Source: Variovorax paradoxus (GTDB lineage: Bacteria; Pseudomonadota; Gammaproteobacteria; Burkholderiales; Burkholderiaceae_C). Taken from it: 64,000 nt of DNA. Position numbers and translations under genes: made by a program. How positions within the stretch are numbered: position 1 is the first letter of the stretch; every line of letters begins with the position of its first letter. Below, one piece after another: positions 8,842-42,607 of the stretch. Below the pieces are notes generated by a model. It saw nothing but the letters and a program-made list of their open reading frames with translations. It did no database searches and was not told the DNA's origin. The stretch covers positions 1,674,001 to 1,738,000 of the forward strand of contig NZ_CP123990.1 of NCBI RefSeq assembly GCF_029919115.1, read 5' to 3'.

Positions 8842-8908
8842 TCCGGCGGATCCGGCGCAACGGGGGTGGGTGAGGCATGCCATCAACCCGCCGCACACAC
8901 GAACCGTG

Positions 8909-9092
8909 CCATATGGGCAGGGGCTTGCATGTACTGCCGATGGCCTCTGCCGGCACGCATTGACCGCCAAAAGCGCAACACTGTGTCTCAAACCCGTGTG
9001 TCATGAGGGCGCGCTGGCGGGCGGCCAGCCAAGGCACCGCTGGGCGCGCCCGCCGCGGGGGCTGAATGGCACATGGCTTGCGTAGTTGCCAG
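8909..9092 (+). promoter_or_regulatory. Spacer before fhcB with two sigma-54-like elements
   Basis: The 254-bp gap between the HisA-like gene and fhcB holds no gene I can support. A strong -24/-12 match, TGGCAC-N5-TTGC, lies at 9067-9081 and predicts a start near 9092, only about 4 nt before the fhcB ATG. A weaker TGG-N9-TTGCAT element at 8914-8930 keeps the GG/GC pair 12 bp apart and predicts a start near 8939. Either could serve the fhc operon. The very short leader from the better match is the main doubt. Confidence 0.4.
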
Positions 9093-9095
9093 CCC

Positions 9096-10340
9096 ATGAG
9101 CGAACTCGACCCCGCCGCCGCGCAGCCCGGCCACCCTCCGTGGACCTGCCCGTTCTGCCCCCTGTTGTGCGATACCTTCGGCGTCGACCTCGGCCCGCCC
9201 GGCACGTCGCTGAAGCTCGTCGGCAGCGATTGCCCACGGGCGAACGCCGCGCTGGCTGCGTTCGACGGCGCGCCCGTCGCTTTGCAGCCACAGGTCGATG
9301 GGCGCGACTGCGACCTCGATGCCGCCATTGCCGCGGCGGCCTCGCTGCTCGCGGCCAGCCATCAGCCTCTGTTCGGCGGCCTTGGAACCGACGTGGCAGG
9401 CGCCCGCGCGCTGTATGCATTGGCCTGCGAAACCGGCGCCATCTGCGACCCGGCGCAGGGGCAGGCCATGATGCATGGGCTGCGCGCACTGCAAGACCGT
9501 GGCGGGTTTACCACCACGCTGGCTGAAATAAAAACGCGGGCCGAGCTGATCGTCTGCATGACGGGCGACCCCACGGCGCGGTATCCCGAATTCTTTCGCC
9601 GATGCGGCGTAGGCGAGCGTGATGACGTTCAAACCGAAATGCTGCCCATGTCGGGCGACATGTTCGATACCGTGGGCCTGCTCGCGGCTTTGGTGGCGGG
9701 CCGCGTTCCGGCAGGCGACGAGCGCGTGCCGGCCGAGTTGATGGCCTTGGCGGCGCGGTTGCAGGCGGCGCGCTATTCGGTGCTGGTGTACGAGCCTGGC
9801 CGCCTGCCGGGGCAGGGCGCATTGATCGTCGAGGCCATCCAGCGCATCGTCGCCACGCTCAACCGGAGCACGCGCGCGGCGTCGCTCTCGTTGGGCGGCG
9901 GTGACGGCGCTGCCACCGTCAACCAGGTGTTCGCCTGGCTTTCCGGCTTGCCGCTGCGCTCGCGCGCCGGGCCGTTGGGCCTGGAACATGAGCCGCTGTG
10001 CTTCGATGCCGGTCGCCTGTTGGCCGACGACGCCGTCGACATGCTGCTGTGGGTCTCGAGCTACGGCCCCGAGCCCGCTCCGCCCCAGGCCGGCATGCCG
10101 CGCATCATGCTCGGGCATCCGGGCATGCGGCCGCAGGGTGGGGAGGCGAGTGCGCGAAGGCAGGTGTTCATCCCCGTATCGACACCCGGCATCGGTTGCA
10201 GCGGCCATCTGTTTCGCACCGACGGCTCGGTGCTGCTGCCGTTGCGTCCGTTGTACGAAGACGGATTGCCCGGTGTGGACGATGTCGTCAAACGCCTGAC
10301 GCAGGCGGTAAAGGCGCTGAAGCGGGAGCGGGCGCAATGA
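9096..10340 (+). CDS. fhcB: Formyltransferase/hydrolase complex subunit B
   Basis: This 414-residue homologue of formylmethanofuran dehydrogenase subunit B has the N-terminal WTCPFCPLLCD cysteine motif and a later CMTGDPTARYPEF segment. In methylotrophs the FhcABCD complex moves the formyl group from formyl-H4MPT to methylofuran and hydrolyses it to formate; the bacterial B subunit is thought to have lost the metal-pterin oxidoreductase activity of its archaeal relative. The ATG at 9096 is the first that keeps the conserved N-terminus. Its stop overlaps fhcA as ATGA, starting the order B-A-D-C. Confidence 0.92.
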   Translation: MSELDPAAAQPGHPPWTCPFCPLLCDTFGVDLGPPGTSLKLVGSDCPRANAALAAFDGAPVALQPQVDGRDCDLDAAIAAAASLLAASHQPLFGGLGTDVAGARALYALACETGAICDPAQGQAMMHGLRALQDRGGFTTTLAEIKTRAELIVCMTGDPTARYPEFFRRCGVGERDDVQTEMLPMSGDMFDTVGLLAALVAGRVPAGDERVPAELMALAARLQAARYSVLVYEPGRLPGQGALIVEAIQRIVATLNRSTRAASLSLGGGDGAATVNQVFAWLSGLPLRSRAGPLGLEHEPLCFDAGRLLADDAVDMLLWVSSYGPEPAPPQAGMPRIMLGHPGMRPQGGEASARRQVFIPVSTPGIGCSGHLFRTDGSVLLPLRPLYEDGLPGVDDVVKRLTQAVKALKRERAQ

Positions 10341-17024: not shown

Positions 17025-17681
17025 CTACACCTGAATCAACCCCCACCGCAGCGCCACCCACGTCAGCTCCGCCTGGTTGGTCGCCCCCAGCTTCTGCTTC
17101 ACGCGGTACAGGTGCGAACCCACCGTGCTGAGCGAAAGGTTCAGCGTGCTCGCAATCTGCGCCACCGTCATGCCGCGCGCAAGCTGGATGAAGACCGAGA
17201 ACTCGCGCTCGCTGAGCAGGTCGGCGGGGTTGGCTTCGCCCTCTATCTGCGCCGTGGCCAGCGCCTGGGCGGTGTTCGCGTCGATGTAGCGCTCGCCGCG
17301 CGCCACGGCCTTGACAGCGGCAATCAGCGCTTCGGGCGCGCTGCGCTTGGCCAGGTAGCCCAGGGCACCGGCGCGCAGCACGCGGCGCGGATGAATCGTG
17401 TCCTCGTGCGCCGACAGGGCGAGCACGCGCGCCTTCGGGTCGTGGGCCAGCAGGCGGCGCAAGGCTTCGAGGCCGCCCATGCCGGGCATCGAAAGGTCCA
17501 TCACCACCAGGTCGGGCCGCACCTGCGGGTAGTCCTGGCAGGCCTGTTCACCGGTGTCGGCTTCGGCTGCCACTTCGATCTGCGCGTCGGCCAGCAGCAT
17601 GCGAAAGCCCATGCGCACCAGCGCATGGTCGTCTACCAGCATCACTCGAATCGGCTTGGCCGCCTGAACTGCCTGGGTCAT
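17025..17681 (-). CDS. LuxR/NarL-family response regulator
   Basis: This 218-residue two-domain regulator has an N-terminal receiver with the acidic pair in VMLVDDHALV, phospho-acceptor Asp in VVMDLSMPGMGG and a lysine in YLAKRSAPEAL. The C-terminal LuxR-type helix-turn-helix covers LSEREFSVFIQLARGMTVAQIA. It should bind DNA when phosphorylated by the adjacent kinase, whose stop overlaps its start (ATGA). Candidate targets are the pqqA/peptidase spacer and other methanol genes, by analogy with LuxR-type regulators of methanol or formaldehyde oxidation in other methylotrophs. That link is inference. Confidence 0.9.
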   Translation of the reverse strand: MTQAVQAAKPIRVMLVDDHALVRMGFRMLLADAQIEVAAEADTGEQACQDYPQVRPDLVVMDLSMPGMGGLEALRRLLAHDPKARVLALSAHEDTIHPRRVLRAGALGYLAKRSAPEALIAAVKAVARGERYIDANTAQALATAQIEGEANPADLLSEREFSVFIQLARGMTVAQIASTLNLSLSTVGSHLYRVKQKLGATNQAELTWVALRWGLIQV

Positions 17682-19063
17682 GTGTCTGTGTTCTCCGTTT
17701 CGCCTGCGCGCATGGGCAGCCGCACCGTCAATCGGGCGCCGCTGGGCACGGCGGGTTCGAGGCGCAATTCGCCGCCCAGGCTGTCGATGCGCTCCGCGAG
17801 CCACCGCAGGCCATAGTGCCCGGTGCTGGTTTCCCTTGCAGCCTCAGGGCCGGGCAGGCCGCGGCCGTCGTCGGTGAGGGTGAGCTTTACCGATTGTTCG
17901 TCGCCCCGCAGCGCCAGCACGATGCGGTGCGCCTCGCCATGGCGCAGGGCATTGGTAATGCCTTCCTGCGCGGCACGATAAAGCACCAGCGCGGTGTCGG
18001 TGTCGAGTCGAAGGCGGTCTAGCTCGAGCTCCAGGCTCCATTCGACCTGCACGTCGCCGTGGCTGTTGCGCGTGCGCTCCACCAGGTCTTCCAGGGCGGC
18101 GACCAGGCCGAACTTGTCGAGCACCAAGGGCGTGAGGCGGGGAATCATGCCGTGCATGGCGGTGTAGAGCCGGCCCGATTCTTCGGCGATCAGGCGTGCG
18201 GCCTGCTCGGCCTGCGGATCGAGCGCCTGCACGCGCTGCGCAATCGAAAGCGCCATGCTGCGCATCGCGGTCACCGATTGCCCCAACTCGTCGTGCAGCT
18301 CGCGCGCGATGAGGCGGCGCTCCTGCTCGATCTTCTGGTCGACCCAGCGGCCGAGTTCGCGGCTTTCGGAAAGGCGGCTTTCGGCCCGCACGGCGCGCCG
18401 CTCGGTTTCGATGTGCTGCTGCAGCATGCCGACCATGCGGTTGAACGCAGCGCCGATGGCCGCGGCCTCGGTGCCGGGCAGGGCGCGTAGCGCCACGTCG
18501 AAGCGCCCGCTCTCGAGCTGGTTGAGGGCATGGACGATGTCGGCGAATGGCCGGGTCGCACGCCCCACGAGCCAGAACACGCCCGCATTGACGACCGCCA
18601 ACAGGCCGAGCGCGCTGAGCATCAGCAGCACGAAGTCGTCCCACGCATCGAGCACCGCACGCGATGCGTTCGACAGCACCATCAGCCGCCCGCCCGGAAA
18701 CGCGATGGACAGTTGCGAGGGCGGCGGCGAGACCAGGCCGGCGAACCAGTCCGGCGCATCGCGCCCGGCCTTGTAGACCGAGGTCGGCGAGCTGTACAGC
18801 ACGCGGTCGTCGTTGTCGAGCAGCGTGATGTCGTTGGACCGGACGCGCCCCACACCCTGCAGAAACGACAGCATGGCCGGCGTGCCCTGCGCCGCGTAGA
18901 GCCAGGCGGTGCGGTTGAGCAACTGCGCGGCCACGCGATTGGCAGCCACGACTTCTTCATGCACCGATTCGCGCATGGCGCGCACCTGCAGCGCGAGCAT
19001 GGCCGCGACGAACAGCAGCGTGAGCAGGCTGACGATCAGGTTGATTTTCAGGCGCAGCGTCAT
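17678..19063 (-). CDS. Membrane sensor histidine kinase (HisKA_3, NarL-partner type)
   Basis: This 461-residue kinase has an N-terminal membrane helix (about residues 7-27), a periplasmic loop of about 120 residues, a second helix near residue 160 and a HAMP region. A HisKA_3 dimerisation site follows with RELHDELGQS, and the ATPase has AAQEGITNALRHG and LTDDGRGL. It pairs with the downstream LuxR-type regulator. The signal is unknown; the periplasmic domain could sense products of periplasmic alcohol oxidation. Starts and stops overlap on both sides, so hydrolase, kinase and regulator form one operon. Confidence 0.9.
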   Translation of the reverse strand: MTLRLKINLIVSLLTLLFVAAMLALQVRAMRESVHEEVVAANRVAAQLLNRTAWLYAAQGTPAMLSFLQGVGRVRSNDITLLDNDDRVLYSSPTSVYKAGRDAPDWFAGLVSPPPSQLSIAFPGGRLMVLSNASRAVLDAWDDFVLLMLSALGLLAVVNAGVFWLVGRATRPFADIVHALNQLESGRFDVALRALPGTEAAAIGAAFNRMVGMLQQHIETERRAVRAESRLSESRELGRWVDQKIEQERRLIARELHDELGQSVTAMRSMALSIAQRVQALDPQAEQAARLIAEESGRLYTAMHGMIPRLTPLVLDKFGLVAALEDLVERTRNSHGDVQVEWSLELELDRLRLDTDTALVLYRAAQEGITNALRHGEAHRIVLALRGDEQSVKLTLTDDGRGLPGPEAARETSTGHYGLRWLAERIDSLGGELRLEPAVPSGARLTVRLPMRAGETENTDT

Positions 19064-20061
19064 GACGCGGGCCCATCGCCGAAGTGGCCATGCAGCGCAT
19101 AGCTGTCGAGCGCGGCGACCATGGCCGATGCCATTGCCGGATGCGAAGGGTCGTGGCCCGCGCCATCGACCCAGCGCAGCTGGCCGTGCGCGATGCGCTC
19201 GTGCACCGCCTGTGCGCCTTCTGGCCGGCAGATGCGGTCGTCGCGCGAGTGCAGCAGCAGAGTGGGTACCTGGGGGAGCGCATCGAGCCGGTCGAGAAGG
19301 GGAGGCGAATCGAGCCAGCAGCAGTGCAGCAGGTAATGGCTCTGCACGCGGTAGCGATCGACCAGCGCGTCGAGCGTCTCGCGGTCGGGTTGTGGCTCGG
19401 CGTTCGATAGGGGTTGGCTGCTGGACAGTGTTCTCTCCCAATGCCACCAAGCGAGGGCAAGCCGCCGGGGCAAGTCTGCATCGGCTCCGGTCGTGGGCTC
19501 CTGCAGGCCGCGAGCCAGATAGCCCAGCATGTCGTGGCGCTGATCAGGCGGCACTGCCGATGCAAACCGCACCCATGCGTCAGGCGCACGGCCCGCGGTG
19601 TCCTGGAAGAAATCTTCGATGTCTTCGGCCCGCGCCAAGAAGACCGCGCGCAGCAGCAAGGCCGCAACTGCCTGCGGCTCGAATGCGCCATACGCAAGCG
19701 CCAGCGTGGCGCCCCACGAACCACCGACAACCAGCCAGCGCGGCACTTCGAGCCGCTCGCGCACAAGGCGCAAATCCTCGAGCAGATCCTCCGTGCGGTT
19801 GTGCGCCGTCGCACCGCGCGGTCGGCTCCGGCCCGCACCGCGCTGGTCGATGCTGATCACGCGGTACCGCCCAGGGTCGAAGAAGCGGCGCAGCAGCGGC
19901 GAGCTGCCCGAGCCAGGCCCGCCATGCAGCACCACGGCGCAGAGGCCGGCCGGATCACCACTTTCTTCTACATGCAGCACGTGGCCGTGCGGCACCTCGA
20001 TGGCGTGGGTGCGCCAGGGCTGGGTTTCTGGGTACAGGCCGGTAGAAAGCACGAGGGCCAT
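19060..20061 (-). CDS. pip: Proline iminopeptidase-like alpha/beta hydrolase
   Basis: This protein of about 333 residues resembles proline iminopeptidase: LYPETQPW near the start, oxyanion HGGPGSGSSPLL, the DQRGAGRS strand, nucleophile elbow VVGGSWGATLAL, and C-terminal Asp/His regions (HSRDDRI, GAGHDPSHP). The ATG at 20061 sits six codons inside the longest frame (20079). Its usual role is removal of N-terminal proline from peptides in the cytoplasm. It is divergent from pqqA and co-transcribed with the two-component genes. No pqqF-type protease is in the window, so help in processing the PqqA peptide is a speculative possibility. Confidence 0.85.
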   Translation of the reverse strand: MALVLSTGLYPETQPWRTHAIEVPHGHVLHVEESGDPAGLCAVVLHGGPGSGSSPLLRRFFDPGRYRVISIDQRGAGRSRPRGATAHNRTEDLLEDLRLVRERLEVPRWLVVGGSWGATLALAYGAFEPQAVAALLLRAVFLARAEDIEDFFQDTAGRAPDAWVRFASAVPPDQRHDMLGYLARGLQEPTTGADADLPRRLALAWWHWERTLSSSQPLSNAEPQPDRETLDALVDRYRVQSHYLLHCCWLDSPPLLDRLDALPQVPTLLLHSRDDRICRPEGAQAVHERIAHGQLRWVDGAGHDPSHPAMASAMVAALDSYALHGHFGDGPAS

Positions 20062-31645: not shown

Positions 31646-32554
31646 TCAGTTGTTGGGCGCTCCGAACGATGCATCGACCAGCGGAACGCCGTACTCCTTC
31701 AGGATGGCCTGGATCTCGGGCGCCTTCGATTCGATCAGCCCCTCGATCTGCTGCTTCCATTCGCGTTCGCCGTAGCGCACGCCCATGGCCATCTGGTAGT
31801 CGAGCCGCAGGCCTTTTTCAGACTTGAGCGGCACCACGACAAGCGCGGGCGTCTTGACGCGCCGGGCGAAGTAGCCGGCAATCGGCCCCCACACCACCAC
31901 CGCGTCGAGCTTGCCTTCGGCCAGGTCCTTCTCGACGATCTCGCCGGGGTATTGCGCGGGGTCGGCGCTCATGAGCTTGTAGGGAATGCCTTGCTCGAGC
32001 AGGCCGTGGCGGTTGAGCCATTGCGAAGCCGGCGAACGGTCGTAGATGCCGATGCGCAGCGACTTGAGCTTGGCCGGATCGAGCTTCAGGAAGTCCTCTG
32101 CCGAAGCCACGTTGTCCATGCCCTTGCCCTTGGGAAAGACCAGTGCATAGGTCGAGCGGTAGTAGGGCTTGGTAACCGAGACTTCGTCGAGCCCGACGGG
32201 CACACCCATCACGATGTCGCAAGGGTAGTCCTGCCCCGGCAGCTTGAAGCGCAGCGTGTTGCGAAAGAAGGCCAGGCGCTGAGGAAACGAGTAGTACACA
32301 ACCGGCAGGCCTAGCGTCTTGCCGAACAGCTCGGCAATGCGGTTCTCGATGCCTTCTCCCTTGGTGTTGGAGAAGGGCATGTTGTTGGGGTCCTGGCAAA
32401 CGCGAAACTCCTTGCGCGGAGGCGTTTCCTGCGCCTGGGCGGGAAGCGGTGCGCAGCAGAGCGCCGCGCCGGCAAGGCCCACCAGGCCCAGGAGGCTGGC
32501 TCGCAGGCGAGCATCGACCGAAAGGGGGTTGGCAGCACGCTGCCGGGCGGTCAT
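31646..32554 (-). CDS. xoxJ: XoxJ periplasmic solute-binding-like protein
   Basis: This 302-residue exported protein has a signal peptide ending PAQAQE and a type 2 periplasmic-binding fold (FRVCQDPNNMPFSNTKGEGIENRIAELF reads as the family opening, split here for length: FRVCQDPNNMPFSN then GEGIENRIAELF). XoxJ/MxaJ are associated with quinoprotein methanol dehydrogenases and may help activate the enzyme. The start overlaps the xoxG stop (ATGA). Confidence 0.9.
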   Translation of the reverse strand: MTARQRAANPLSVDARLRASLLGLVGLAGAALCCAPLPAQAQETPPRKEFRVCQDPNNMPFSNTKGEGIENRIAELFGKTLGLPVVYYSFPQRLAFFRNTLRFKLPGQDYPCDIVMGVPVGLDEVSVTKPYYRSTYALVFPKGKGMDNVASAEDFLKLDPAKLKSLRIGIYDRSPASQWLNRHGLLEQGIPYKLMSADPAQYPGEIVEKDLAEGKLDAVVVWGPIAGYFARRVKTPALVVVPLKSEKGLRLDYQMAMGVRYGEREWKQQIEGLIESKAPEIQAILKEYGVPLVDASFGAPNN

Positions 32555-32961
32555 TTGTTTTCTTCCACTCGGGCGCGGGTGATCGCGCCGTCGGACCGGC
32601 CCTTCAGGTAGGCATAGAGCTGGTTGATGTTTTCCATCACCGCGGGGTTGTTGCCGAAGCTCTGCATGCCCTTGTCGAGCCGTCCGTCGCGAACGGTCTT
32701 GATGAAGTCTTCCTTCTTCATGGTCTTCAGGCTGTTGATCAGCGACGGGCCGACCATGCCCTCCTGGTTGGGGCCGTGGCAACGGTCGCAGGCTGCGGAG
32801 CGCCAGGTGCGGAAACCCTTCATGGTTTCCGGGTCCACCTTGTAGCCGTCGGTTACCTTGTAGGGCGCGGGGTCGGGCGCAGCGGCCACAGCCAATGTGC
32901 AGGCGACGCCGGCAAGCAATACGAGGGAAGGCAGCAACGTTGACTTACTACGAAATTTCAT
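32551..32961 (-). CDS. xoxG: Cytochrome c XoxG
   Basis: This 136-residue exported c-type cytochrome has a signal peptide, a single heme site CDRCH at residues 58-62 and a probable Met ligand around GKGMQSFG. It is the electron acceptor expected for XoxF, passing electrons towards a terminal oxidase. It follows xoxF with a 139-bp gap that contains a strong hairpin. Confidence 0.9.
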   Translation of the reverse strand: MKFRSKSTLLPSLVLLAGVACTLAVAAAPDPAPYKVTDGYKVDPETMKGFRTWRSAACDRCHGPNQEGMVGPSLINSLKTMKKEDFIKTVRDGRLDKGMQSFGNNPAVMENINQLYAYLKGRSDGAITRARVEENK

Positions 32962-33100: not shown

Positions 33101-34930
33101 TCAATTGCTCGGCAGCGCAAAGACGGTGAGCGAGCCGCCCAGTTCGGTGTACTGGCTCAGTTCCTTGTAGCCACCCACGGCGCCCAGGCCTTCGGTGCTC
33201 TTCTCGGGGTCGATGCCCGCAGCCATGCCGATGCCGGCCCAGCCGCCAATGCCCGAGAACACGCCGATGTATTGCTTGCCCTTGTGCTCATAAGTGAACA
33301 CGTTGCCGATGATTCCGGACGGCGTCTTGAACTTGAAGAGCTCCTTGTTGATGTCCTTGGCATCCACGCACTTCAGGTAGCCCTCGAGCGTGCCGTAGCA
33401 GGAGATTCCGCCGGCGGTGTTCAGCGAACCGCTCCACACCGAGAACTTCTCGGCCTTGGTCTGCACGATCTTGCCGGTGCCCGCGTCCCAGGCAATGAAG
33501 TTGCCCATGCCGCCATGGCTGCCCGGCGTGGGGTACATCGACAGCGTGGCGCCCACATACGGCTGGCCCGCGGTGTACTCGACCTTGAACGGCTCGTAGT
33601 CCATGCAGACGTGGTTCGTCGGCACGTAGAAGAGCTTGGTGTTGGGGTCGTACGAGGCGGGTTGCTGGTCCTTGCTGCCCAGTGCTGCGGGGCAAACGCC
33701 CTTGGTGTTGACATCGGCGCCGTTCTGCGCGGTCGAATACTTGGCAACCACTTGCGGGCGGCCGGTCTTCATGTCGACGTGCGTGGCCCAGTTCACCTTG
33801 GGGTCGTACTTTTCGGCCACCAGCAGCGCGCCGGTCACGCGGTCGAGCGTGTAGGCAAAGCCGTTGCGGTCGAAGTGCACCAGCGCCTTGGTGGGCTTGC
33901 CCTTCACGTTGATGTCGGCCAGGATCATTTCGTTGATGCCGTCGAAGTCCCACTCGTCGTACGGCGTCATCTGGTACACCCAGTTGACCTTGCCCGTGTC
34001 GACGTCGCGCGACCAGATGCTCATCGACCACTTGTTGTCGCCGGGCCGCTGCGCCGGGTTCCAGGTCGACGGGTTTCCGGTGCCGTAGTAAACGGCATTG
34101 GTCGCCTTGTCGTAGCTGTACCAGCCCCAGGTGGTGCCGCCGCCGATTTTCCACTGGTCGCCCTTCCAGGTCTTCAGCGAAGAGTCCTTGCCCACGGGGG
34201 CCATCTTGCCGTCGGTCCAGGTCATGGTCTTGGCCGGGTCCATCAGCATCTCTTCGTCCGGCCCCGTGCTGAAGCCCTTCCAGGCCAGCTTGCCGTCCTT
34301 GATGTTGTAGGCAGCCAGGTAGCCGCGTACGCCGAACTCGCCGCCGCTGATGCCGGTGATCACCTTGTCCTTGAAGACGTGGGGGGCGTTGGTGTTGGTG
34401 GCGCCAACCTTCGGATCGCCGTTCTTCACCGTCCACACGACCTTGCCGGTCTTGCTGTCCAGTGCAACCAGCGTGGTGTCGGCCTGTTGCAGGAAGACCT
34501 TTCCTTCGGCGTAGGCAAGCCCGCGGTTCACCGTGTCGCAGCACATCACCGCGATCACTGACTGGTCCTGCTTGGGTTCGTACTTCCACAGGATCTTCTG
34601 GGTTTCGACGTCGACCGCGAACACCTTGTTCGGGAACGGCGAGTGCAGGTACATCGTGCCGTCGACCACCAGGGGCGAGCCCTCGTGACCGCGCAGCACG
34701 CCGGTGGAGAACGTCCACGCAACCTGCATCTTGCCCACGTTGCTCTTGGTGATCTGATTCAACTTGCTGTAGCGCTGGTTGAACATATCGCCCGCTTGCG
34801 TGGCCCAGTTCTTGGAGTTGGCGATGTTTTTCTCTACATCGGCATTGGCAAGCGCCAAAGCCGGAAGAGCCAACATCGCGACGCCGATATGCCGTACGAG
34901 ACGGCCGGCGATCTGCCTGGAAAACTTCAT
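33101..34930 (-). CDS. xoxF: Lanthanide-dependent methanol dehydrogenase XoxF
   Basis: This 609-residue PQQ-dependent alcohol dehydrogenase has a signal peptide of about 28 residues, the adjacent cysteine pair C130-C131 ([10 protein letters not shown]) that forms the disulfide over PQQ, and eight W-motif propeller blades. The segment PYDEWDFDG places the catalytic Asp at 328 and a second Asp at 330; calcium-type MxaF has Ala at the second place, so this is the rare-earth form. It oxidises methanol in the periplasm. A good ribosome site (GAGGAGAC) precedes the ATG at 34930. A sigma-54-like promoter lies about 90-100 bp upstream. Confidence 0.96.
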
Positions 34931-35018
34931 AAATGTCTCCTCACATTTCAGTGGGTTTCGAACACGATCTGGCAGCAGCCCGCGGATCTTTCGATCGCTT
35001 TGGCGAATGCTGCGGTCC

Positions 35019-35033
35019 GCAACATCCATGCCT
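35019..35033 (-). promoter_or_regulatory. Sigma-54-like promoter for xoxF
   Basis: On the minus strand the sequence is AGGCAT-GGATG-TTGC, matching the consensus TGGCAC-N5-TTGC at GG, CA and all of TTGC with the required 12-bp spacing. The predicted start is near 35008, giving a leader of about 78 nt to the xoxF ATG. Confidence 0.5.
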
Positions 35034-35110
35034 GCCGTTTTCAACCGTTGTCACGCCATGGCGCATCGCGCGTTCGATGCAACGGCCCGCGGCACCACTC
35101 GCAGGAGCGC

Positions 35111-35154
35111 ATTGCGCCACCGCACCCTTGCTGCGTGCGGTGGTGTGCCGCAAT
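35111..35154. promoter_or_regulatory. Nested inverted repeat, possible shared enhancer site
   Basis: CCACCGCAC (35117-35125) and GTGCGGTGG (35135-35143) are a perfect 9-bp inverted repeat with a 9-nt gap. Outer arms ATTGCG (35111-35116) and CGCAAT (35149-35154) extend it with a 5-nt asymmetry. It lies about 120 bp upstream of the predicted xoxF start and about 260 bp upstream of the opposite start, suitable for a sigma-54 activator. The binding protein is inferred only. Confidence 0.4.
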
Positions 35155-35365
35155 GGGACGCTTACCTAGGGAAATCCCGGGCGTTCGAAAGCATTGCGCA
35201 GCGCAGCACAACACGCATGCGGTGGCCTGCGCGCGAAATGCGCATCCAAATTTGACGCAAAGTGTCTCGTGCGAAGTACGCATGCCAGGCCCTGATGAGC
35301 CGCGTGGGCGGCCTGCGCAGGCAAATGAGTAGGGACTCATCACAGTGAAAACCCTTGCCGGCCAG

Positions 35366-35380
35366 AGGCACAGAATTTGC
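35366..35380 (+). promoter_or_regulatory. Sigma-54-like promoter for the ABC/TonB uptake operon
   Basis: AGGCAC-AGAAT-TTGC matches the -24/-12 consensus TGGCAC-N5-TTGC at every position except the first T. The predicted start is near 35391, 55 nt before the ATPase gene. Confidence 0.55.
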
Positions 35381-35445
35381 GGATCGAATGGCAAACGGCA
35401 AATAACATTGAAGCCCGAACAGCTCGACAAATCACACCGCCCTAC

Positions 35446-36159
35446 ATGCTGCGAACCATCGACTTAACCAAGCGCTATGGCACGCGCACGGCGCTGCGGT
35501 CGTTGTCGCTGCAGCTGGCTGCGGGCCAGTTCGTGGCACTGCTCGGCCCCAACGGCGCGGGCAAGTCGACGCTGTTCCAGGTGTTGACGGGCATGTTCGC
35601 TGCCGACGAAGGCGAGGTCGAGGTCGCCGGCCATTCGCTGCGCCGCTCGGCCACTGCTGCACTGCGGCATATCGGCGTGGTGTTCCAGCAGATGTCGCTC
35701 GACCTGGACCTGAGCATCCGGCGCAACCTGCTGTTCCAGGCCGACCTGCACGGCCTGCCGCGGCGGCTGGCCGAAGAGCGCATTGCTTCGGCCTGCGAAC
35801 GCCTGAACATCGACGCAGACCTGAACCGCAAGGTGCGCGAACTGTCGGGCGGCAACCGGCGCAAGGTGGAGCTTGCGCGCGCGGGCCTGCACCGGCCGGC
35901 CGTGCTGCTGATGGACGAAGCCACCGTGGGGCTCGACCCGAAGTCGCGGCAAGACCTTTTGGCCGCACTGCGCGCCGACGTGCGCGAGCGCGGCGTGTGC
36001 GTGCTGTGGGCCACGCACCGGGTCGAAGAAGCCGAAGAGGCCGACCGGGTGCTCGTGCTGCACAAGGGTTCCCTGCTGGCGGACGGCACGCCCGCAGAGG
36101 TGGGCCAGCTGCTCGGCGGCGCCACGCTGGAGGCGGGCTTCATCGCGCGCACTGCCTGA
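35446..36159 (+). CDS. ABC transporter ATPase, PQQ-dehydrogenase-linked (PedB/LutE-like)
   Basis: This 237-residue ATPase has Walker A GPNGAGKST, Q-loop VVFQQMS, signature RELSGGNRRKVELA, Walker B VLLMDEATVGLD and switch histidine in WATHRVEEAEEA. With the following propeller, binding protein and permease it reproduces the ABC set found beside PQQ alcohol dehydrogenases, called PedA1A2BC in Pseudomonas and related to Lut proteins of Methylobacterium, both linked to lanthanide uptake. The substrate here is inferred from family and from xoxF next door. The ATG at 35446 was preferred to upstream in-frame starts lacking conserved sequence. Confidence 0.85.
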   Translation: MLRTIDLTKRYGTRTALRSLSLQLAAGQFVALLGPNGAGKSTLFQVLTGMFAADEGEVEVAGHSLRRSATAALRHIGVVFQQMSLDLDLSIRRNLLFQADLHGLPRRLAEERIASACERLNIDADLNRKVRELSGGNRRKVELARAGLHRPAVLLMDEATVGLDPKSRQDLLAALRADVRERGVCVLWATHRVEEAEEADRVLVLHKGSLLADGTPAEVGQLLGGATLEAGFIARTA

Positions 36160-36201: not shown

Positions 36202-37224
36202 ATGCGGCAACCTTCTTTCCCTTCGCTTCGTCGCGCGTCTGTTCGAACTGCCTGCCGCTCTAGCGCTGTCGTTGCCGCACTTGCGCTCCTGCTGGCCGCC
36301 GGGGGCAACGCCGCGCTGGCGCAGGGCACCGCCTATGTGTCGAGCGAAAAAGACAGCGCGCTGACGATGATCGACCTGGCAACGCTGGCCGTGAAGGGCA
36401 CCATTGCCACCTGCAAGCGCGCGCGCCACATCCAGCTGACACCCGAGCGGCAGATCATGGTGGCGTGCACCGACTCCAACCAGGCCGACCTGATCGACCC
36501 CGCGACCGGCAAATCGGTGCGCCGCATTCCGCTGGGCGACGAGCCCGAGGCCTTCGACCTTTCGCCGGACGGCAAGGTGATTTATGTTTCGAATGAAGAC
36601 GCGGGCGAGGCCAGCTTCATCGACACGGCCAGCGGCAAGAAGCTGCGCTCGGTGAAGGTGGGCGCGGAGCCAGAGGGCGTAAAGGTGAGCGCCGACGGCA
36701 AGACCCTGTACGTGACCTCGGAAGTGGCAAGCCTGGTGCACGTGATCGACACCGCCAGCGGCAAGGTCGTCAAGAACATCCGCGTGGGCAAGCGCCCGCG
36801 GCGCATGGCCATCACGCCGGACGGAAAAGAGCTGTGGGTCACCAATGAGCTGGGCGCCAGCGTCAGCATTGTCTCGACCGCCACCAACGAGGTGATCGAC
36901 ACGCTCAAGTTCGAAGTGAAGGGCGCACGCGCCGAAGACATCACGCCCGTCGGCATCCAGATGACGAGCGACGGCAAGCGCGCGTTCGTGGGCCTTGGCC
37001 GCGCCAACCACGTGGCCTTTGTCGACGTGCCCGGCCGCAAGGTCGGTTCGCTGGTGCTGGTCGGCAAGCGGGCCTGGAACGTCACGCTCGACAAGGCGCA
37101 GGCCCGGCTCTATGTGGTCAACGGCCTGAGCGACGACGTCACCGTGGTCGACGTGGCCGGTGCCAAGGCAGTGAAGAGCGTTCCGGTAGGGCGCGTGCCC
37201 TATGGGCTCGTGATCGTCGAATGA
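36202..37224 (+). CDS. Periplasmic beta-propeller protein of the PQQ-linked ABC operon (PedA2/LutB-like)
   Basis: This 340-residue exported protein has a signal peptide (SSAVVAALALLLAAGGNAALAQ) and YVTN-type blades (AYVSSEKDSALTMIDLA, IYVSNEDAGEASFIDTASG, LWVTNELGASVSIV). The family accompanies the PQQ-linked ABC transporter. Its role is unknown; periplasmic metal or metallophore handling is possible. It starts 42 bp after the ATPase gene, and its stop overlaps the next start (ATGA). Confidence 0.82.
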   Translation: MRQPSFPSLRRASVRTACRSSAVVAALALLLAAGGNAALAQGTAYVSSEKDSALTMIDLATLAVKGTIATCKRARHIQLTPERQIMVACTDSNQADLIDPATGKSVRRIPLGDEPEAFDLSPDGKVIYVSNEDAGEASFIDTASGKKLRSVKVGAEPEGVKVSADGKTLYVTSEVASLVHVIDTASGKVVKNIRVGKRPRRMAITPDGKELWVTNELGASVSIVSTATNEVIDTLKFEVKGARAEDITPVGIQMTSDGKRAFVGLGRANHVAFVDVPGRKVGSLVLVGKRAWNVTLDKAQARLYVVNGLSDDVTVVDVAGAKAVKSVPVGRVPYGLVIVE

Positions 37225-38411
37225 GGACGCGCGCAAAGGCAAAGTGCCCTGCGGGCGCGTGGTTGATGGCCGTGGCGCTCGTTTCGCTCATGGCGCCGGT
37301 GGCGGCGGGCGCGGCTGTGCTCAAGGCCACGCTGATCACGCCCGATGACGATCCGCGGCTGGAGCGGTCGCGGGTGGAGCGCGCCTACCTCGGCCATCCG
37401 GGCGGGCCGCTGTCCGACGGGCTCGAGGTGGCGCTCGAAGAAACCCGGTTCGAGCTGGAGGCGGTGGGTGCCGAAGTGGCGCTGGCCACCGCGCCGGCCG
37501 CGTCCATCGAGGCCGCGCGCGCCGCGGCTGTGGCTGCCGAGAAAGCCGGCGCAGCGGTGCTGCTGACCGACCTGCCCGCCGATTGGACGCTGGCCGTGGC
37601 CGACGCCGTGAAGCTGCCGGTGCTCAACCTCGGCGACGCAGCCGACCGCCTGCGCCAGCAGGACTGCCGCGCGCGCCTTTTTCACCTGATGCCGAGCGAA
37701 CGCATGCGCAGCGACGCGCTCGCGCAAACGCTGGTGTCCCGCAAGTGGAACAAGCTGCTCCTGCTGGTGGGCGGCAGCCCGCAGGATGCGTTGCGCGCAG
37801 CCACCGCTCAGGCATCGATCAAGCGCTACGGCCTGCAGGTGGTGGCGAGCAAGCCGTTCAAGCTTTCGGCCGATCCGCGTGAGCGCGATCTGGCCAACCC
37901 GCTGCTGCTGACGGCCGGCAACGGCTATGACGCCGTGTGGGTGGTCGACAGCGACGGAGAATTTGCCCGCACGCTGCCCTACCGCACGGTGCTGCCGCGC
38001 CCGGTGGTGGGCGATGGCGGGCTGGTGGCGGTGGCCTGGCATGCGCAGTTCGAGCGCTATGGCGCGCCGCAGGTCTCGCGGCGCTTTGCCAAGGCCGCCA
38101 GGCGGCCGATGACGGCGCACGACTGGTCTGCCTGGATGGCCGGCAAGACCCTGGCGGCCATCGCGATTGCGGCGCCCAAGGGGCCGGTTGCGGCCTGGGC
38201 CCAGGCCATCGGCAAGACCACGCTCGACGGCTCCAAGGGCACCACCCTGAGCTTTCGCGCCTGGGACGGCCAATTGCGCCAGCCCATGCTGCTGACCGAC
38301 GGGCAGGGCGTGATTGCGCAGGCGCCTGCCGAAGGCGTGCTGCATGCGCGCAACGTGCTCGACACGCTGGGTGCCGATGCGCCGGAGAAGCTATGTCCGA
38401 ACGCACGCTGA
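37221..38411 (+). CDS. ABC transporter periplasmic binding protein, PQQ-linked (PedA1/LutA-like)
   Basis: This 396-residue exported protein has a signal peptide and a type 1 periplasmic-binding fold (LITPDDDPRLERSRVERAY near the start; ATAQASIKRYGLQVVASKPF; GNGYDAVWVVDSDGEFA). It matches the binding protein class that travels with the PQQ-linked ABC transporter and probably delivers a rare-earth ion or complex. Its end overlaps the permease gene by 19 bp. Confidence 0.82.
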   Translation: MRTRAKAKCPAGAWLMAVALVSLMAPVAAGAAVLKATLITPDDDPRLERSRVERAYLGHPGGPLSDGLEVALEETRFELEAVGAEVALATAPAASIEAARAAAVAAEKAGAAVLLTDLPADWTLAVADAVKLPVLNLGDAADRLRQQDCRARLFHLMPSERMRSDALAQTLVSRKWNKLLLLVGGSPQDALRAATAQASIKRYGLQVVASKPFKLSADPRERDLANPLLLTAGNGYDAVWVVDSDGEFARTLPYRTVLPRPVVGDGGLVAVAWHAQFERYGAPQVSRRFAKAARRPMTAHDWSAWMAGKTLAAIAIAAPKGPVAAWAQAIGKTTLDGSKGTTLSFRAWDGQLRQPMLLTDGQGVIAQAPAEGVLHARNVLDTLGADAPEKLCPNAR

Positions 38412-39280
38412 AAACGCAAACGCCCGCCGGCGAACATGCCGAGCCCACCGCCAGGCGAGGCCTGGTCCACGCGCTGCAGGCCATGCGCGCCATCGTGCTG
38501 CGCGAGCTCTACAAGTTTTCGCAGCAGACCGGGCGGTTGGTGTCGGCGCTGGTACGGCCGCTCTTGTGGCTGGCCGTGTTTGCGGCGGGTTTCCGCAATG
38601 TGTTCGGCGTGGCGATCGTCGAGCCCTACGACACCTACATTCCGTACGACGTGTACATCGTGCCCGGGCTGGTCGGCATGGTGCTGCTGTTCAACGGCAT
38701 GCAGTCGTCATTGGCCATGGTGTACGACCGCGAGATGGGGCTGATGCGCCTTTTGCTCACGGCGCCGCTGCCGCGGCCCTGGCTTCTGTTTTCCAAGCTG
38801 TGCGCCACGGCGCTGCTTTCGGTGCTGCAGGCGCTGGTGTTCGTTGTCGTGGCGGCGCTCATCGGCACCGAACTGCCGCTGCTGTCGCTTGCCGGCCTGC
38901 ATGCGCTCGTGGCGCTGGCGGCCGGCGCGCTCATGCTGGGAGCGCTCGGGCTGCTGCTGTCGGTGCACATCAAGCAGCTGGAGAACTTTGCGGGCACGAT
39001 GAACTTCGTCATCTTTCCGATGTACTTCCTGTCGACCGCACTCTATCCGCTGTGGAAGCTGCAGGAGTCGGGTGCCGAATGGGTGTACCAGCTGGCGCGC
39101 TTCAATCCCTTTACCTATGCGGTGGAGTGGATTCGCTTTGCCCTCTACGGCAAGGACCCGGGCCTTGCGCCCTATGTGGTGCTGGGCTGCCTGATCGTCT
39201 TCTTCGGGTTTGCCTGCTGGGGCTACGACCCGCAGCGCGGCTTTGGCGGACTGACCAAGCGCGGAGGCGGTGGGCCATGA
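38393..39280 (+). CDS. ABC transporter permease, PQQ-linked (PedC/LutF-like)
   Basis: This 295-residue ABC-2 type permease has about six membrane helices (for example LVRPLLWLAVFAAGF, VPGLVGMVLLFNGM, VLQALVFVVVAALIG, LGCLIVFFGFACWGY). ABC-2 permeases are mostly exporters, yet this family is tied to lanthanide import phenotypes, so direction needs caution. The start lies inside the end of the binding protein gene; the stop overlaps the TctC-type gene (ATGA). Confidence 0.85.
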   Translation: MSERTLKTQTPAGEHAEPTARRGLVHALQAMRAIVLRELYKFSQQTGRLVSALVRPLLWLAVFAAGFRNVFGVAIVEPYDTYIPYDVYIVPGLVGMVLLFNGMQSSLAMVYDREMGLMRLLLTAPLPRPWLLFSKLCATALLSVLQALVFVVVAALIGTELPLLSLAGLHALVALAAGALMLGALGLLLSVHIKQLENFAGTMNFVIFPMYFLSTALYPLWKLQESGAEWVYQLARFNPFTYAVEWIRFALYGKDPGLAPYVVLGCLIVFFGFACWGYDPQRGFGGLTKRGGGGP

Positions 39281-40275
39281 GCGAACAGGGCGGCGATGTC
39301 ACCCGGCGCCGCTGGCTGCAGCATGCGGCCGCGCTAGGGCTGGGCGCATCGGCCATGCCGCGCGCGGTGGCTTCGAACGAGCCGTTTCCGTCCCGCCCGA
39401 TCACGCTGTGGGTGCCATGGCCCGCCGGCGGGGCCACCGACATCTCGCTGCGGATTCTTGCCGAACTGGCCTCCGTGCCGCTCGGCCAGCCGGTGCTGAC
39501 CGAAAACCGCGGCGGCGCCGGCGGCACGCTGGCCATGCCGGTGCTGCAGCAGGCCAAGCCCGACGGCTACACCATCGCGCAAATGCCGCAGCCGGTGTTC
39601 CGGGCGCCGCACGTGCAGAAGGTGCTCTGGGACCCGATCCGCGATGTGACGCCGATCATCCAGGTGTCCAGCGTGACCTTCGGCATGCTGGTTGCGGCGG
39701 GCAGCTCCGTGCGTTCGCTCGAGGACATGTTCGCCTTTGCGCGAGCGCGGCCGGGCGAGCTGACCATTGCCACCAACGGCATCGGCACCACGCCGCACAT
39801 GGTGCTGGAGGCGCTGTTCACGGCGCGGGGGCTGCGCTACATCCATGTGCCCTACAAGGGCACGGCCGAGCAGCTGAACGCCATTGCGGGCGGGCAGGTG
39901 ATGGCGGGCGTCAATTCCACCGGGTTCGGGCCGGCGGTGGACGCCGGCACGCTGCGGCTGCTGGCCATCTTTTCAAGCGAGCGCTCCAGGCGGTGGCCGC
40001 AAGTGCCGGTGCTGCGCGAACTCGGGTTCGACATCGTGGCGAAGTCGCCCTACGGCCTGTCCGGGCCGCGCGGCATGTCGCCGGCGGTGATCGGCGTGCT
40101 GCACGACGCTTTCAAGAAGGCCATGTTCGACCAGCGCTTCAAGGACGAACTGGCCAAGTACGACCAGGAGGTCGACTACCTCGGGCCGGAGGCCTATGCG
40201 CAGTCGTGCCGCGAGATCTTCGCGCAGGAGCGCGCCATGGTGGAGAAGCTGGGCCTCACGCGCACCGGCACCTGA
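39277..40275 (+). CDS. TctC/Bug-family periplasmic receptor within the uptake operon
   Basis: This 332-residue receptor has a twin-arginine-like signal (TRRRWLQHAAALGLGASA) and Bug-family hallmarks (ITLWVPWPAGGATDIS, PVLTENRGGAGG, VPYKGTAEQLNAIAGGQVMAG). Such receptors bind tricarboxylates or other carboxylates. No TctA or TctB partner is present. Its ATGA coupling to the permease and position before the TonB receptor suggest a part in the same process, perhaps binding a metal-carboxylate, which is speculative. Confidence 0.85.
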   Translation: MSEQGGDVTRRRWLQHAAALGLGASAMPRAVASNEPFPSRPITLWVPWPAGGATDISLRILAELASVPLGQPVLTENRGGAGGTLAMPVLQQAKPDGYTIAQMPQPVFRAPHVQKVLWDPIRDVTPIIQVSSVTFGMLVAAGSSVRSLEDMFAFARARPGELTIATNGIGTTPHMVLEALFTARGLRYIHVPYKGTAEQLNAIAGGQVMAGVNSTGFGPAVDAGTLRLLAIFSSERSRRWPQVPVLRELGFDIVAKSPYGLSGPRGMSPAVIGVLHDAFKKAMFDQRFKDELAKYDQEVDYLGPEAYAQSCREIFAQERAMVEKLGLTRTGT

Positions 40276-40291
40276 AAACAGGAGGGAACCC

Positions 40292-42607
40292 GTGAGCCGA
40301 CCGAACAAGAAAAAAGGCAACCGCCGCCTCGTCGGCCTCGACATGGCGGCCCTGGCCGCGGTGGCCGCCGCAGCCTGCCCGATGATGGGCCACGCGCAGG
40401 ACGCCGCGCCGCAGGCGGGCAGCCTGCCGACCGTCGAAGTGGTCAGCACCACGCCCGTGCCGGGCATCGAGGTGCCCAGGGACCAGATTCCGTCGAACGT
40501 GCAGACGGCGGACGACCGGCAGCTGCGCCGCGCGCAAAGCCTGAACTTGCCCGACTTCATGGCCACGCAGCTGCCGAGCGTCAACGTGAACGAGATCCAG
40601 GGCAATCCGTACCAGGTCGACGTGAACTACCGCGGCTTTACCGCGAGCCCGGTGCTGGGCACGCCGCAGGGCCTCTCGGTGTACCAGGACGGCGTGCGCG
40701 TGAACGAACCCTTCGGCGACGTGGTGAACTGGGACCTGATTCCGAAGGCAGCCATATCGAGCATCACGCTGCTGCCGGGCTCCAACCCGCTGTTCGGGCT
40801 GAACACGCTCGGCGGCGCGCTGTCGCTGCAGACCAAGCGGGGCGACACGCATCCGGGTACCGAGCTGGAACTGCAGGCCGGCTCTTTCGGCCGCGTGAGC
40901 ACCGAGCTCACGCATGGCCGCAAGCTGGGCGAGGGCGGGCACCTCTTTCTTGCATTCGGCGGCCTCAACGAAGACGGTTGGCGCAACTATTCGCCTTCCC
41001 GCGTGCGGCAGCTGTTTGCCAAGGTGGGGCAAGACAGCGGCAAGCTCTCGTGGGACCTGAGCCTTACCCACGGCGACAACCGCATGGTGGGCAACGGCCT
41101 GCTGCCGGAGTCGATGCTGGCGCAGAACCGCAAGCAGGTGTACACGCGGCCAGACCGCACCGACAACCTCATGTCGATGCTCACGCTCAACGCCAGCTAC
41201 CGCCTGAGCGACGTGCAGACGATTTCCATGACCGCGTACACGCGGCGCTCGCGCTACAGCACGCTCAACGGCGACCTGAACGACGGCTTTGCGCCGCCCG
41301 ACGTCGAGGCGTCCGGCGTGGAGAACCGCACCTACACGCGGCAGCAGGGCGAGGGCGTGGCACTGCAATCGACCTATACGGCCGGCATTCACCAGCTCAC
41401 CTTCGGCGCCTCGTTCGACCGTGCACGCACGCGCTTTTTGCAGACCGAAGCGGAAGGCTTTCTCGACGGCACGCGCGCCGTGGTGCCGCAAGAAGAGGCC
41501 GAGGTCGACGCGCTGCTCTCGGGCAAGAGCCGCACCGCCAGCCTCTATTTCTCCGACCTGATCACATTGCAGCCGAACCTGCAGCTCAGCCTTTCCGGCC
41601 GCTACAACGACACCCGCGTTTCCACCCGCGACGACGGCCGCGCCTGGCTCGGGCTTTCGACCCAGCTCGACGGCGAAGGCCGCTACAAGAAGTTCAACCC
41701 TGCCATCGGCCTCACATGGCAGGCCACGCCGCGGCTCACGGCCTATGCCGGCTGGAGCCAGGGCAGCCGCGCGCCGAGCCCTATCGAGCTGGGCTGCTCC
41801 GATCCGGCCAACGCGTGTGTGCTGCCCAATGCGCTGCAGTCCGATCCGCCGCTCAAGCAGGTGGTTTCGCAGACCTTCGAAACAGGGTTGCGCGGCACGT
41901 TTGAAGACGGGCTGCGATGGAATGCATCGGTGTTCCGCACAGTCAACAAGGACGACCTGCTGTTCGTCAGCAGCGGGCTTTCGCGCGGGTACTTCAGCAA
42001 CTTTGGGCGCACGCTGCGCCAAGGCGTCGAGCTCGGCCTTTCGCAGCAGGGCGACCGCGTCGACTGGTCGCTGTCGTACAGCTATCTGCGCGCAAGGTAC
42101 GACTCGCCGGCATGCCTGGTGTCCGAATCGAACAGCAGCGCCGAGACCAACCCCGCCTGCACCGGCGAAGGCGAGATTGCCGTGCGGCCCGGAGACCGCC
42201 TGCCGGGCCTGCCGGCGCACTCGCTCAAGTTCAACGTCGACTGGCGGGTTACGCCAAGCTGGAGCCTGGGCGCGCAATACCGCGTGTATTCACGGCAGAC
42301 CGTGCGCGGCAACGAGAACGGGCTGCACGTGCCCGACGGGGCGGACTTCAGCGGCAGCGGCCGCATCGGCGGCTATGCGCTGCTCGACCTCACCACGCGT
42401 TGGAAGCTCGGGCGCAATGTGGAGCTTTTTGCCAAGGTGGCCAACGTGTTCAACCGCCGCTATGCCACCGCGGGACAGTTGGGGCACAACGGCTTTGACG
42501 CCAGCGGCGTGGTGGCGTCGCCGGACGCGTGGCGCAACTCGCAGTTCGTGGCGCCGGGTGCGCCTCGGGCGGTGTGGGTGGGGCTGCGCATGCAGTTGGG
42601 GGTTTGA
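40292..42607 (+). CDS. TonB-dependent outer-membrane receptor (candidate lanthanide/lanthanophore receptor)
   Basis: This 771-residue receptor has a signal peptide, a plug domain (LPSVNVNEIQGNPYQVDVNYRGF is the region; key part VDVNYRGF, then GLSVYQDGVRVNEPFGDVVN) and a beta-barrel ending in an aromatic-poor but hydrophobic strand (VWVGLRMQLGV). A GTG start at 40292 follows a consensus AGGAGG. No TonB box can be named with confidence. By operon position it may import a rare-earth complex, like LutH. It converges on cbbR with a 19-bp gap. Confidence 0.88.
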   Translation: MSRPNKKKGNRRLVGLDMAALAAVAAAACPMMGHAQDAAPQAGSLPTVEVVSTTPVPGIEVPRDQIPSNVQTADDRQLRRAQSLNLPDFMATQLPSVNVNEIQGNPYQVDVNYRGFTASPVLGTPQGLSVYQDGVRVNEPFGDVVNWDLIPKAAISSITLLPGSNPLFGLNTLGGALSLQTKRGDTHPGTELELQAGSFGRVSTELTHGRKLGEGGHLFLAFGGLNEDGWRNYSPSRVRQLFAKVGQDSGKLSWDLSLTHGDNRMVGNGLLPESMLAQNRKQVYTRPDRTDNLMSMLTLNASYRLSDVQTISMTAYTRRSRYSTLNGDLNDGFAPPDVEASGVENRTYTRQQGEGVALQSTYTAGIHQLTFGASFDRARTRFLQTEAEGFLDGTRAVVPQEEAEVDALLSGKSRTASLYFSDLITLQPNLQLSLSGRYNDTRVSTRDDGRAWLGLSTQLDGEGRYKKFNPAIGLTWQATPRLTAYAGWSQGSRAPSPIELGCSDPANACVLPNALQSDPPLKQVVSQTFETGLRGTFEDGLRWNASVFRTVNKDDLLFVSSGLSRGYFSNFGRTLRQGVELGLSQQGDRVDWSLSYSYLRARYDSPACLVSESNSSAETNPACTGEGEIAVRPGDRLPGLPAHSLKFNVDWRVTPSWSLGAQYRVYSRQTVRGNENGLHVPDGADFSGSGRIGGYALLDLTTRWKLGRNVELFAKVANVFNRRYATAGQLGHNGFDASGVVASPDAWRNSQFVAPGAPRAVWVGLRMQLGV

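Follow-up and report, generated by a model that had tools for sequence, protein, structure and literature searches.

A predicted sigma-54 control region shared by xoxF and a putative lanthanide transporter operon in Variovorax paradoxus

Introduction

The exaA promoter of Azospirillum brasilense Sp7 is reportedly of the -24/-12 type. This gene for a PQQ alcohol dehydrogenase depends on sigma-54, with which a LuxR-type regulator is reported to act (cited in PMC6115532), and the same paper gave the particular sigma-factor need of PedS2/PedR2 in Pseudomonas putida as unknown in 2018. Among activators of C1 metabolism, PMC5874634 describes MmoR as a cluster-encoded GAF-group sigma-54 activator that runs soluble methane monooxygenase; PedA1A2BC is described in PMC12997753 as transporting lanthanides in Pseudomonas. 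The methanol dehydrogenase gene xoxF is common in Comamonadaceae, with 28 of 34 genera carrying it in one survey (PMC7065363).

The Variovorax locus described here resembles each of these systems in part. As with exaA, a PQQ dehydrogenase gene is associated with sigma-54, a dependence that is predicted in the Variovorax case; it differs in that the regulator of exaA is of LuxR type, whereas the Variovorax sites are tracked by a GAF/GAFTGA activator, XoxF takes the place of the exaA product, and the enhancer would serve two divergent operons, with fhc joining them. The sigma-54 mmo promoters of methanotrophs share with it the C1 oxidation genes and the in-cluster GAF-group activator, but MmoR targets soluble methane monooxygenase and not a lanthanide methanol dehydrogenase, a transporter or fhc. 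The PedS2/PedR2 system of P. putida also involves a PedA1A2BC-type operon, and a LuxR response regulator with its kinase is likewise present in the Variovorax island; P. putida, however, relies on a two-component LuxR system for this switch, whereas the conserved sites of Variovorax track a sigma-54 activator. NtrC sites have a 7-3-7 geometry, and the 17-bp 7-3-7 palindrome about 100 bp upstream resembles an NtrC-type enhancer, but its letters are YGANRCA-N3-TGYNNCR and it is linked to the GAF activator of a C1 island. Every part is of a known kind; in the literature searched, with subscription papers mostly outside its scope, we found neither this combination, nor a statement on sigma-54 control of xoxF, nor an answer to how xoxF is controlled in betaproteobacteria.

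Results

The window, by which we mean the whole stretch of 64,000 nucleotides analyzed, lies in a 5.81 Mb genome consisting of a single contig. The genes needed here are as follows (bit scores with family cut-offs).

81-1967 (+): activator with GAF, sigma-54 AAA+ (GAFTGA) and HTH_8 domains (Pfam PF01590, PF00158 Sigma54_activat, PF02954)
9096-10340 (+): fhcB-like gene, formylmethanofuran dehydrogenase B family (TIGR03129, 139.9 bits, under the cut-off of 327.8)
17025-17804 (-): LuxR-type response regulator (PF00072, PF00196), the rival regulator
17678-19450 (-): HAMP/HisKA_3 histidine kinase adjoining the LuxR-type regulator
31646-32782 (-): xoxJ-type periplasmic protein, downstream of xoxF (TIGR03871, 285.0 bits, cut-off 212.15)
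33101-34930 (-): xoxF, PQQ methanol dehydrogenase (TIGR03075, 728.8 bits, cut-off 480.05)
35446-36159 (+): ABC ATPase of PedB type, at the head of the divergent operon (TIGR03864, 317.7 bits, cut-off 302.25)
36202-37224 (+): PedA2-type beta-propeller protein (TIGR03866, 317.3 bits, cut-off 287.3)
37221-38411 (+): PedA1-type substrate-binding protein (TIGR03863, 352.2 bits, under the cut-off of 413.6)
38474-39280 (+): PedC-type permease, start approximate (TIGR03861, 357.8 bits, cut-off 241.35)
40196-42607 (+): TonB-dependent receptor (PF00593, PF07715)

The original prediction held that a sigma-54 activator gene opens the island, and such a gene is found there with its 5' end beyond the window: the frame is open across the left window edge (741 aa; likeliest ATG 75 bp outside). 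Its GAF, Sigma54_activat and HTH_8 domains, together with a GAFTGA motif at residue 374 (numbering from position 81), are those of a GAF-type sigma-54 enhancer-binding protein. The xoxF product belongs to the PQQ methanol/ethanol dehydrogenase family (TIGR03075), and its translation contains YDEWDFDG, i.e., the DFDG motif, which we take to mark the extra lanthanide Asp of XoxF. Facing away from xoxF, the ATPase, propeller, binding-protein and permease families of PedA1A2BC are adjacent, with TIGR03863 alone below its cut-off; judged by their spacing, these genes form one putative operon, predicted to encode a PedA1A2BC-type lanthanide transporter. A TctC-type gene and then the TonB-dependent receptor follow the PedC-family gene, and by its position the receptor would be the outer-membrane partner of the transporter. 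Downstream of the fhcB-like gene are amidohydrolase (Amidohydro_3) and FTR (FTR/FTR_C) genes, and the rest of the island holds FTR, Fae and other tetrahydromethanopterin-pathway genes, pqqB, pqqC and pqqE, with Calvin-cycle genes at the right. A sigma-54 DNA-binding domain (PF04552) is encoded by two genes of this genome (G000:C1:3181613 and 1511552), so single rpoN deletions may mislead.

The start codons of xoxF (ATG at 34930, -) and of the ABC ATPase (ATG at 35446, +) are separated by a spacer of 515 bp (34931-35445) that contains two elements similar to the sigma-54 consensus TGGCAC-N5-TTGC.

35019-35033 (-): -24/-12 element toward xoxF, AGGCAT-GGATG-TTGC, two mismatches, both outside GG/GC
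35366-35380 (+): -24/-12 element toward the ABC operon, AGGCAC-AGAAT-TTGC, one mismatch, outside GG/GC

Both elements have GG and GC at the fixed spacing of sigma-54 promoters, and their places, strands and geometry within the 515-bp spacer agree with the original prediction; the leaders, put there at 55 and 78 nt, come to ~54 nt (ABC side) and ~77 nt (xoxF side) if the C of TTGC is taken as -12. The accompanying argument from chance failed. Matches with at most two mismatches number 111 in the window (nine with at most one) versus 111.36 expected from shuffles, or ~0.9 per 515 bp, and letter counts were therefore dropped as proof of sigma-54 sites, leaving conservation as the evidence needed.

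For this we aligned throughout with the window the spacers of Variovorax loci L001-L003 and L057 and of 12 of 60 further Variovorax genomes (those whose spacers could be cut and aligned). The total was 21 spacers, with 17 from main-group Variovorax, of which 15 are distinct, including the window's own row. Mean identity to the window across these 15 is 0.72 (own row included), and the complete list of invariant runs of at least seven columns comprises 34933-34946 (the xoxF ribosome-site region), 35017-35032 (the xoxF element, the longest run), 35168-35174 (AGGGAAA), 35247-35254 (block CAAATTTG, which adjoins a palindrome), 35256-35269 (that palindrome) and 35365-35371 (the ABC -24). In the same spacers the xoxF element is invariant in 14 of 15 columns, with a constant N5, while the ABC element is invariant in all 10 columns outside N5 and varies in four of the five N5 columns. 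The two spacer sites stand above chance because they are conserved. A further block, CAGTGAAAACCCT at 35343-35355, directly upstream of the ABC promoter, is also well conserved.

The elements persist where the surrounding letters have changed. In the diverged Variovorax genomes G002, G043 and G054, with XoxF 85–86% identical, both are kept at constant gene distances with changed letters, as RGGCGC-GCATC-TTGCA before xoxF, at a distance of 112–113 nt, and as GGGCGC-(GCGTA, GGGTA or GCCTA)-TTGCW before the ABC gene, at 58 nt; L016, also a diverged Variovorax, has a spacer identical to that of G002. A fixed position with changing N5 was found on the ABC side within Variovorax, on both sides in the diverged group and on the xoxF side across taxa, and -24/-12 sites point in both directions at L004, L007 and L014. 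Using a -24/-12 matrix set by hand from the general consensus, we scanned positions 1-36200 of the window against ten relatives and obtained 36 candidate sites scoring at least 9, of which seven persist in all the relatives aligned. Three of the seven sit in variable DNA (local identity 0.67–0.84): 9067 (8/8 relatives), 35018, which is the xoxF element (9/9), and 35366 (9/9). The other four (2338, 2424, 7019 and 22740) were set aside as uninformative because the DNA around them is strongly conserved.

Beyond the original prediction, the analysis identified a palindrome in the spacer and a third promoter-like element, before the fhc operon, that has its own palindrome.

35253-35269 (no strand): palindrome, proposed shared UAS, CGAGACA-CTT-TGCGTCA as read on the minus strand
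8974-8990 (no strand): palindrome before fhc, put forward as an activator site (UAS), CGCAACACTGTGTCTCA (TGAGACA-CAG-TGTTGCG), kept in relatives
9067-9081 (+): third conserved -24/-12 element, before the fhc operon, TGGCAC-ATGGC-TTGC (TGGCACATGGCTTGC), an exact consensus match
35165-35178 (no strand): nearly invariant block CCTAGGGAAATCCC, with AGGGAAA invariant; GGGGAAACCC in diverged Variovorax

The spacer palindrome has 7-3-7 geometry, with 16 of 17 columns invariant in the 15 main-group spacers, and reads TGAAACA-CTC-TGTGTCG in diverged Variovorax; it is thus an upstream palindromic site of the kind that accompanies sigma-54 promoters, and its binding is predicted. With a matrix built from six seed sequences, among them the two sites of the window itself, exactly two matches of at least 13 bits occur in the 64-kb window, each paired with a -24/-12 site, versus 1, 0, 0, 0 and 0 such pairs in five shuffled windows. 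An exact pattern taken from the two window palindromes has three matches in the whole genome, two being those sites, a search that is circular because the pattern was derived from them; the third match (5413527) has only a weak -24/-12 site, 32 bp off, and was rejected. Among loci L060-L080 (Caballeronia, Paraburkholderia and kin), which contributed no seeds, TGACACA-GTA-TGTGTCG or close forms precede xoxF in 20 of 21, the absence being at L071. At the third element, the fhcB ATG lies 13–15 nt beyond the last C of TTGC in 16 of 16 sequences (the window and 15 loci) with varying letters between, so that, if this C stands at -12, transcription would begin 1–3 nt before the ATG and give a nearly leaderless mRNA.

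Several related patterns were seen elsewhere. No strong palindrome was found in the activator's own upstream DNA (best 10.7 bits). Seven further palindrome-like places in the same genome were scanned (L219-L225); at L219 (G000:C1:976901) a weak palindrome lies 63 bp before a good -24/-12-like site, AGGCACGCTGCTTGCA, ahead of a 759-aa frame, and at L220 a palindrome and a -24/-12-like site are paired 125 bp apart. Upstream of fhc, at 8896-8911, there is a CACG-N3-CGTG-like palindrome, present in several relatives and in other genera, which registers as a weak reverse-strand sigma-54 match. In Ramlibacter (L195) xoxF has no palindrome, and a palindrome with TGGCGC-GCAAG-TTGC adjoins the activator gene, before a gene that is presumably folB-like. 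Four Paraburkholderia/Caballeronia-type loci (L230, L231, L232 and L235) were compared beyond the palindrome: L230 and L235 also have a -24/-12 site there, pointing at what we take to be a pterin-carbinolamine-dehydratase-like gene, and L231 and L232 lack such a site.

To assign the palindrome to a regulator, we examined co-inheritance among xoxF-bearing genomes. Of at least 593 xoxF loci, the 80 best were retained, and the co-inheritance set is 50 genomes from those 80, excluding four Variovorax loci, 17 of the 21 in L060-L080 and nine others, and including the diverged Variovorax L016; several of these genomes are metagenome bins, possibly incomplete. A palindrome of at least 12 bits, a threshold fixed after the scores were known, precedes xoxF in 17 of the 50. 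An activator orthologue (at least 55% identity) is present in all 17 palindrome genomes versus 4 of the 33 others (Fisher p = 6e-10, or 4e-10 minus two partial-match genomes; both values overstate independence because the genomes are related). Matches to the activator are partial in L013 and L021. Without the four seed genomes, the palindrome occurs in 13 of 17 genomes with the orthologue and in 0 of 29 without it; L008, L010, L011 and L013 have the orthologue and neither palindrome nor site before xoxF. Sites of at least 8 bits facing xoxF at 70–230 nt were found in 17 of the 21 genomes with an activator orthologue of at least 55%, versus 1.2 expected from shuffles and 2 such genomes for the opposite strand. 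Across 61 Variovorax genomes, xoxF is present in 16 and the activator (at least 72%) in the identical 16, the next best match elsewhere being at most 45%. From this co-inheritance we infer that the activator binds the palindrome.

The alternative that survives best, although we regard it as improbable, is that the sigma-54 promoters are driven through the LuxR-type response regulator (17025-17804) in the manner of exaA, with the palindrome or a conserved block, GGGAAATCCC, as its site. A LuxR-type regulator acting with sigma-54 at a PQQ dehydrogenase has a precedent (PMC6115532), the regulator and its kinase lie inside the island, the regulator occurs in all 16 xoxF-bearing Variovorax of the 61 searched, and the GGGAAATCCC block would suit a second regulator. 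Since all palindrome-bearing Variovorax also have the LuxR regulator, activator and LuxR regulator are indistinguishable inside the genus. Outside it, however, the palindrome is not tied to the LuxR regulator, which at 55% or more is present in 11 of 17 palindrome genomes versus 16 of 33 others (p = 0.37), a control with the same relatedness as the activator comparison. The presence of the regulator thus does not track palindrome and promoter as that of an EraR-like LuxR protein should, and co-occurrence does not support it as owner of the palindrome. Moreover, four searched Paraburkholderia/Caballeronia-type genomes with palindrome and site have LuxR matches of merely 44–46%, and G025 (G025:C2:3705741) is the one Variovorax beyond the 16 with the LuxR regulator (87%), while xoxF and activator are absent from it at the thresholds used. 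The existence of a dedicated GAFTGA activator also argues against the LuxR route. A pattern search for the GGGAAATCCC block before xoxF in L001-L080 found it at nine loci, four of them main-group Variovorax; this type of block could accommodate a second regulator, perhaps the LuxR protein, which might convey lanthanide information. The block at 35165-35178 suggests a site for a further regulator.

We then considered whether the elements are sigma-54 promoters at all. That transcription of xoxF and the transporter comes from sigma-70 promoters of the usual kind, aided by activator sites, with an incidental -24/-12 likeness and conserved blocks that bind other proteins, is very unlikely in our view. 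In keeping with it, near-matches in the window are at chance level, and the main-group xoxF element is conserved including its N5, as another protein's site might be. By contrast, a scan of the spacer for sigma-70-like promoters gave none, which is weak evidence with only 0.2 expected in shuffles, and distant taxa change N5 and outer letters yet keep GG, TGC and the spacing, a pattern that is partly circular in that the sites of the frequency table were picked by score, which raises the GG and TTGC figures. The constant distance from the -12 C to the fhcB ATG in all 16 sequences also speaks against it. So does the company kept by the site at loci where a distant activator homologue lies within 5 kb of xoxF, 11 in number, of which nine were scored (L050 and L056 have no usable upstream): the -24/-12 site precedes xoxF in 7 of 7 with an intact GAFTGA and in 0 of 2 without it (L027 and L030, the loss being taken from a gapped pairwise alignment). 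The L027/L030 homologue, directly before xoxF and with GAFTGA seemingly lost, may be a partner of sigma-70. Among the 21 genomes of the 'neither' class, seven carry a -24/-12 site of at least 8 where 1.6 would be expected; control of xoxF by sigma-54 thus probably extends beyond this activator, and activators other than the 81-1967 protein may drive xoxF via sigma-54.

Finally, we give next to no credence to a real ABC-side element beside a decoy xoxF element, with xoxF read from an unrecognized promoter: the xoxF element is further from consensus and ~225 bp from the palindrome versus ~100 bp on the ABC side, but a site on the xoxF side is widespread outside Variovorax, in a survey where L047, L050, L055 and L056 had no usable upstream, and in the main group it exceeds every other invariant run of the spacer.

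Discussion

The above analyses suggest that sigma-54 very probably controls both sides of the spacer from a single enhancer common to them, at which the activator encoded at 81-1967 would act on xoxF, on the transporter operon and, through the second palindrome, on fhc via RpoN. The absence of a perfect consensus from both spacer elements counts against this explanation. The reading of the original prediction as an RpoN regulon is nonetheless supported on the grounds of conservation at fixed geometry, the palindrome, co-inheritance with the activator rather than the LuxR regulator, and the GAFTGA contrast, all of which are features of genome sequence.

In the mechanism that we propose, the GAF/AAA+/HTH_8 activator would sense a C1-related signal, a C1 compound being the simplest guess for the ligand of the GAF domain. 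Bound as a dimer to the 7-3-7 palindrome of the spacer (35253-35269), the activator would use its GAFTGA loop to remodel RpoN-RNA polymerase at both divergent -24/-12 promoters, the -24 being ~100 bp from the palindrome on the transporter side and ~225 bp on the xoxF side. Activator bound at the second palindrome (8974-8990) would drive fhc from the promoter at 9067. Joint induction would cover metal import, the enzyme that depends on this metal and the pathway removing the product of that enzyme.

Naming an activator, its site and three promoters makes the question of xoxF control testable, and offers a DNA signature for searching other genomes. One switch would govern the oxidation of methanol and of formaldehyde as well as lanthanide transport. 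More broadly, we see evenly balanced prospects for a conserved C1 regulon of Burkholderiales in which one dedicated sigma-54 activator, responding through its GAF domain to a C1 intermediate, would use the shared enhancer and its second copy to switch on the H4MPT formaldehyde pathway together with the lanthanide methanol dehydrogenase and the lanthanide transporter, with a nearly leaderless fhc mRNA, and would replace the two-component lanthanide switches of other bacteria.
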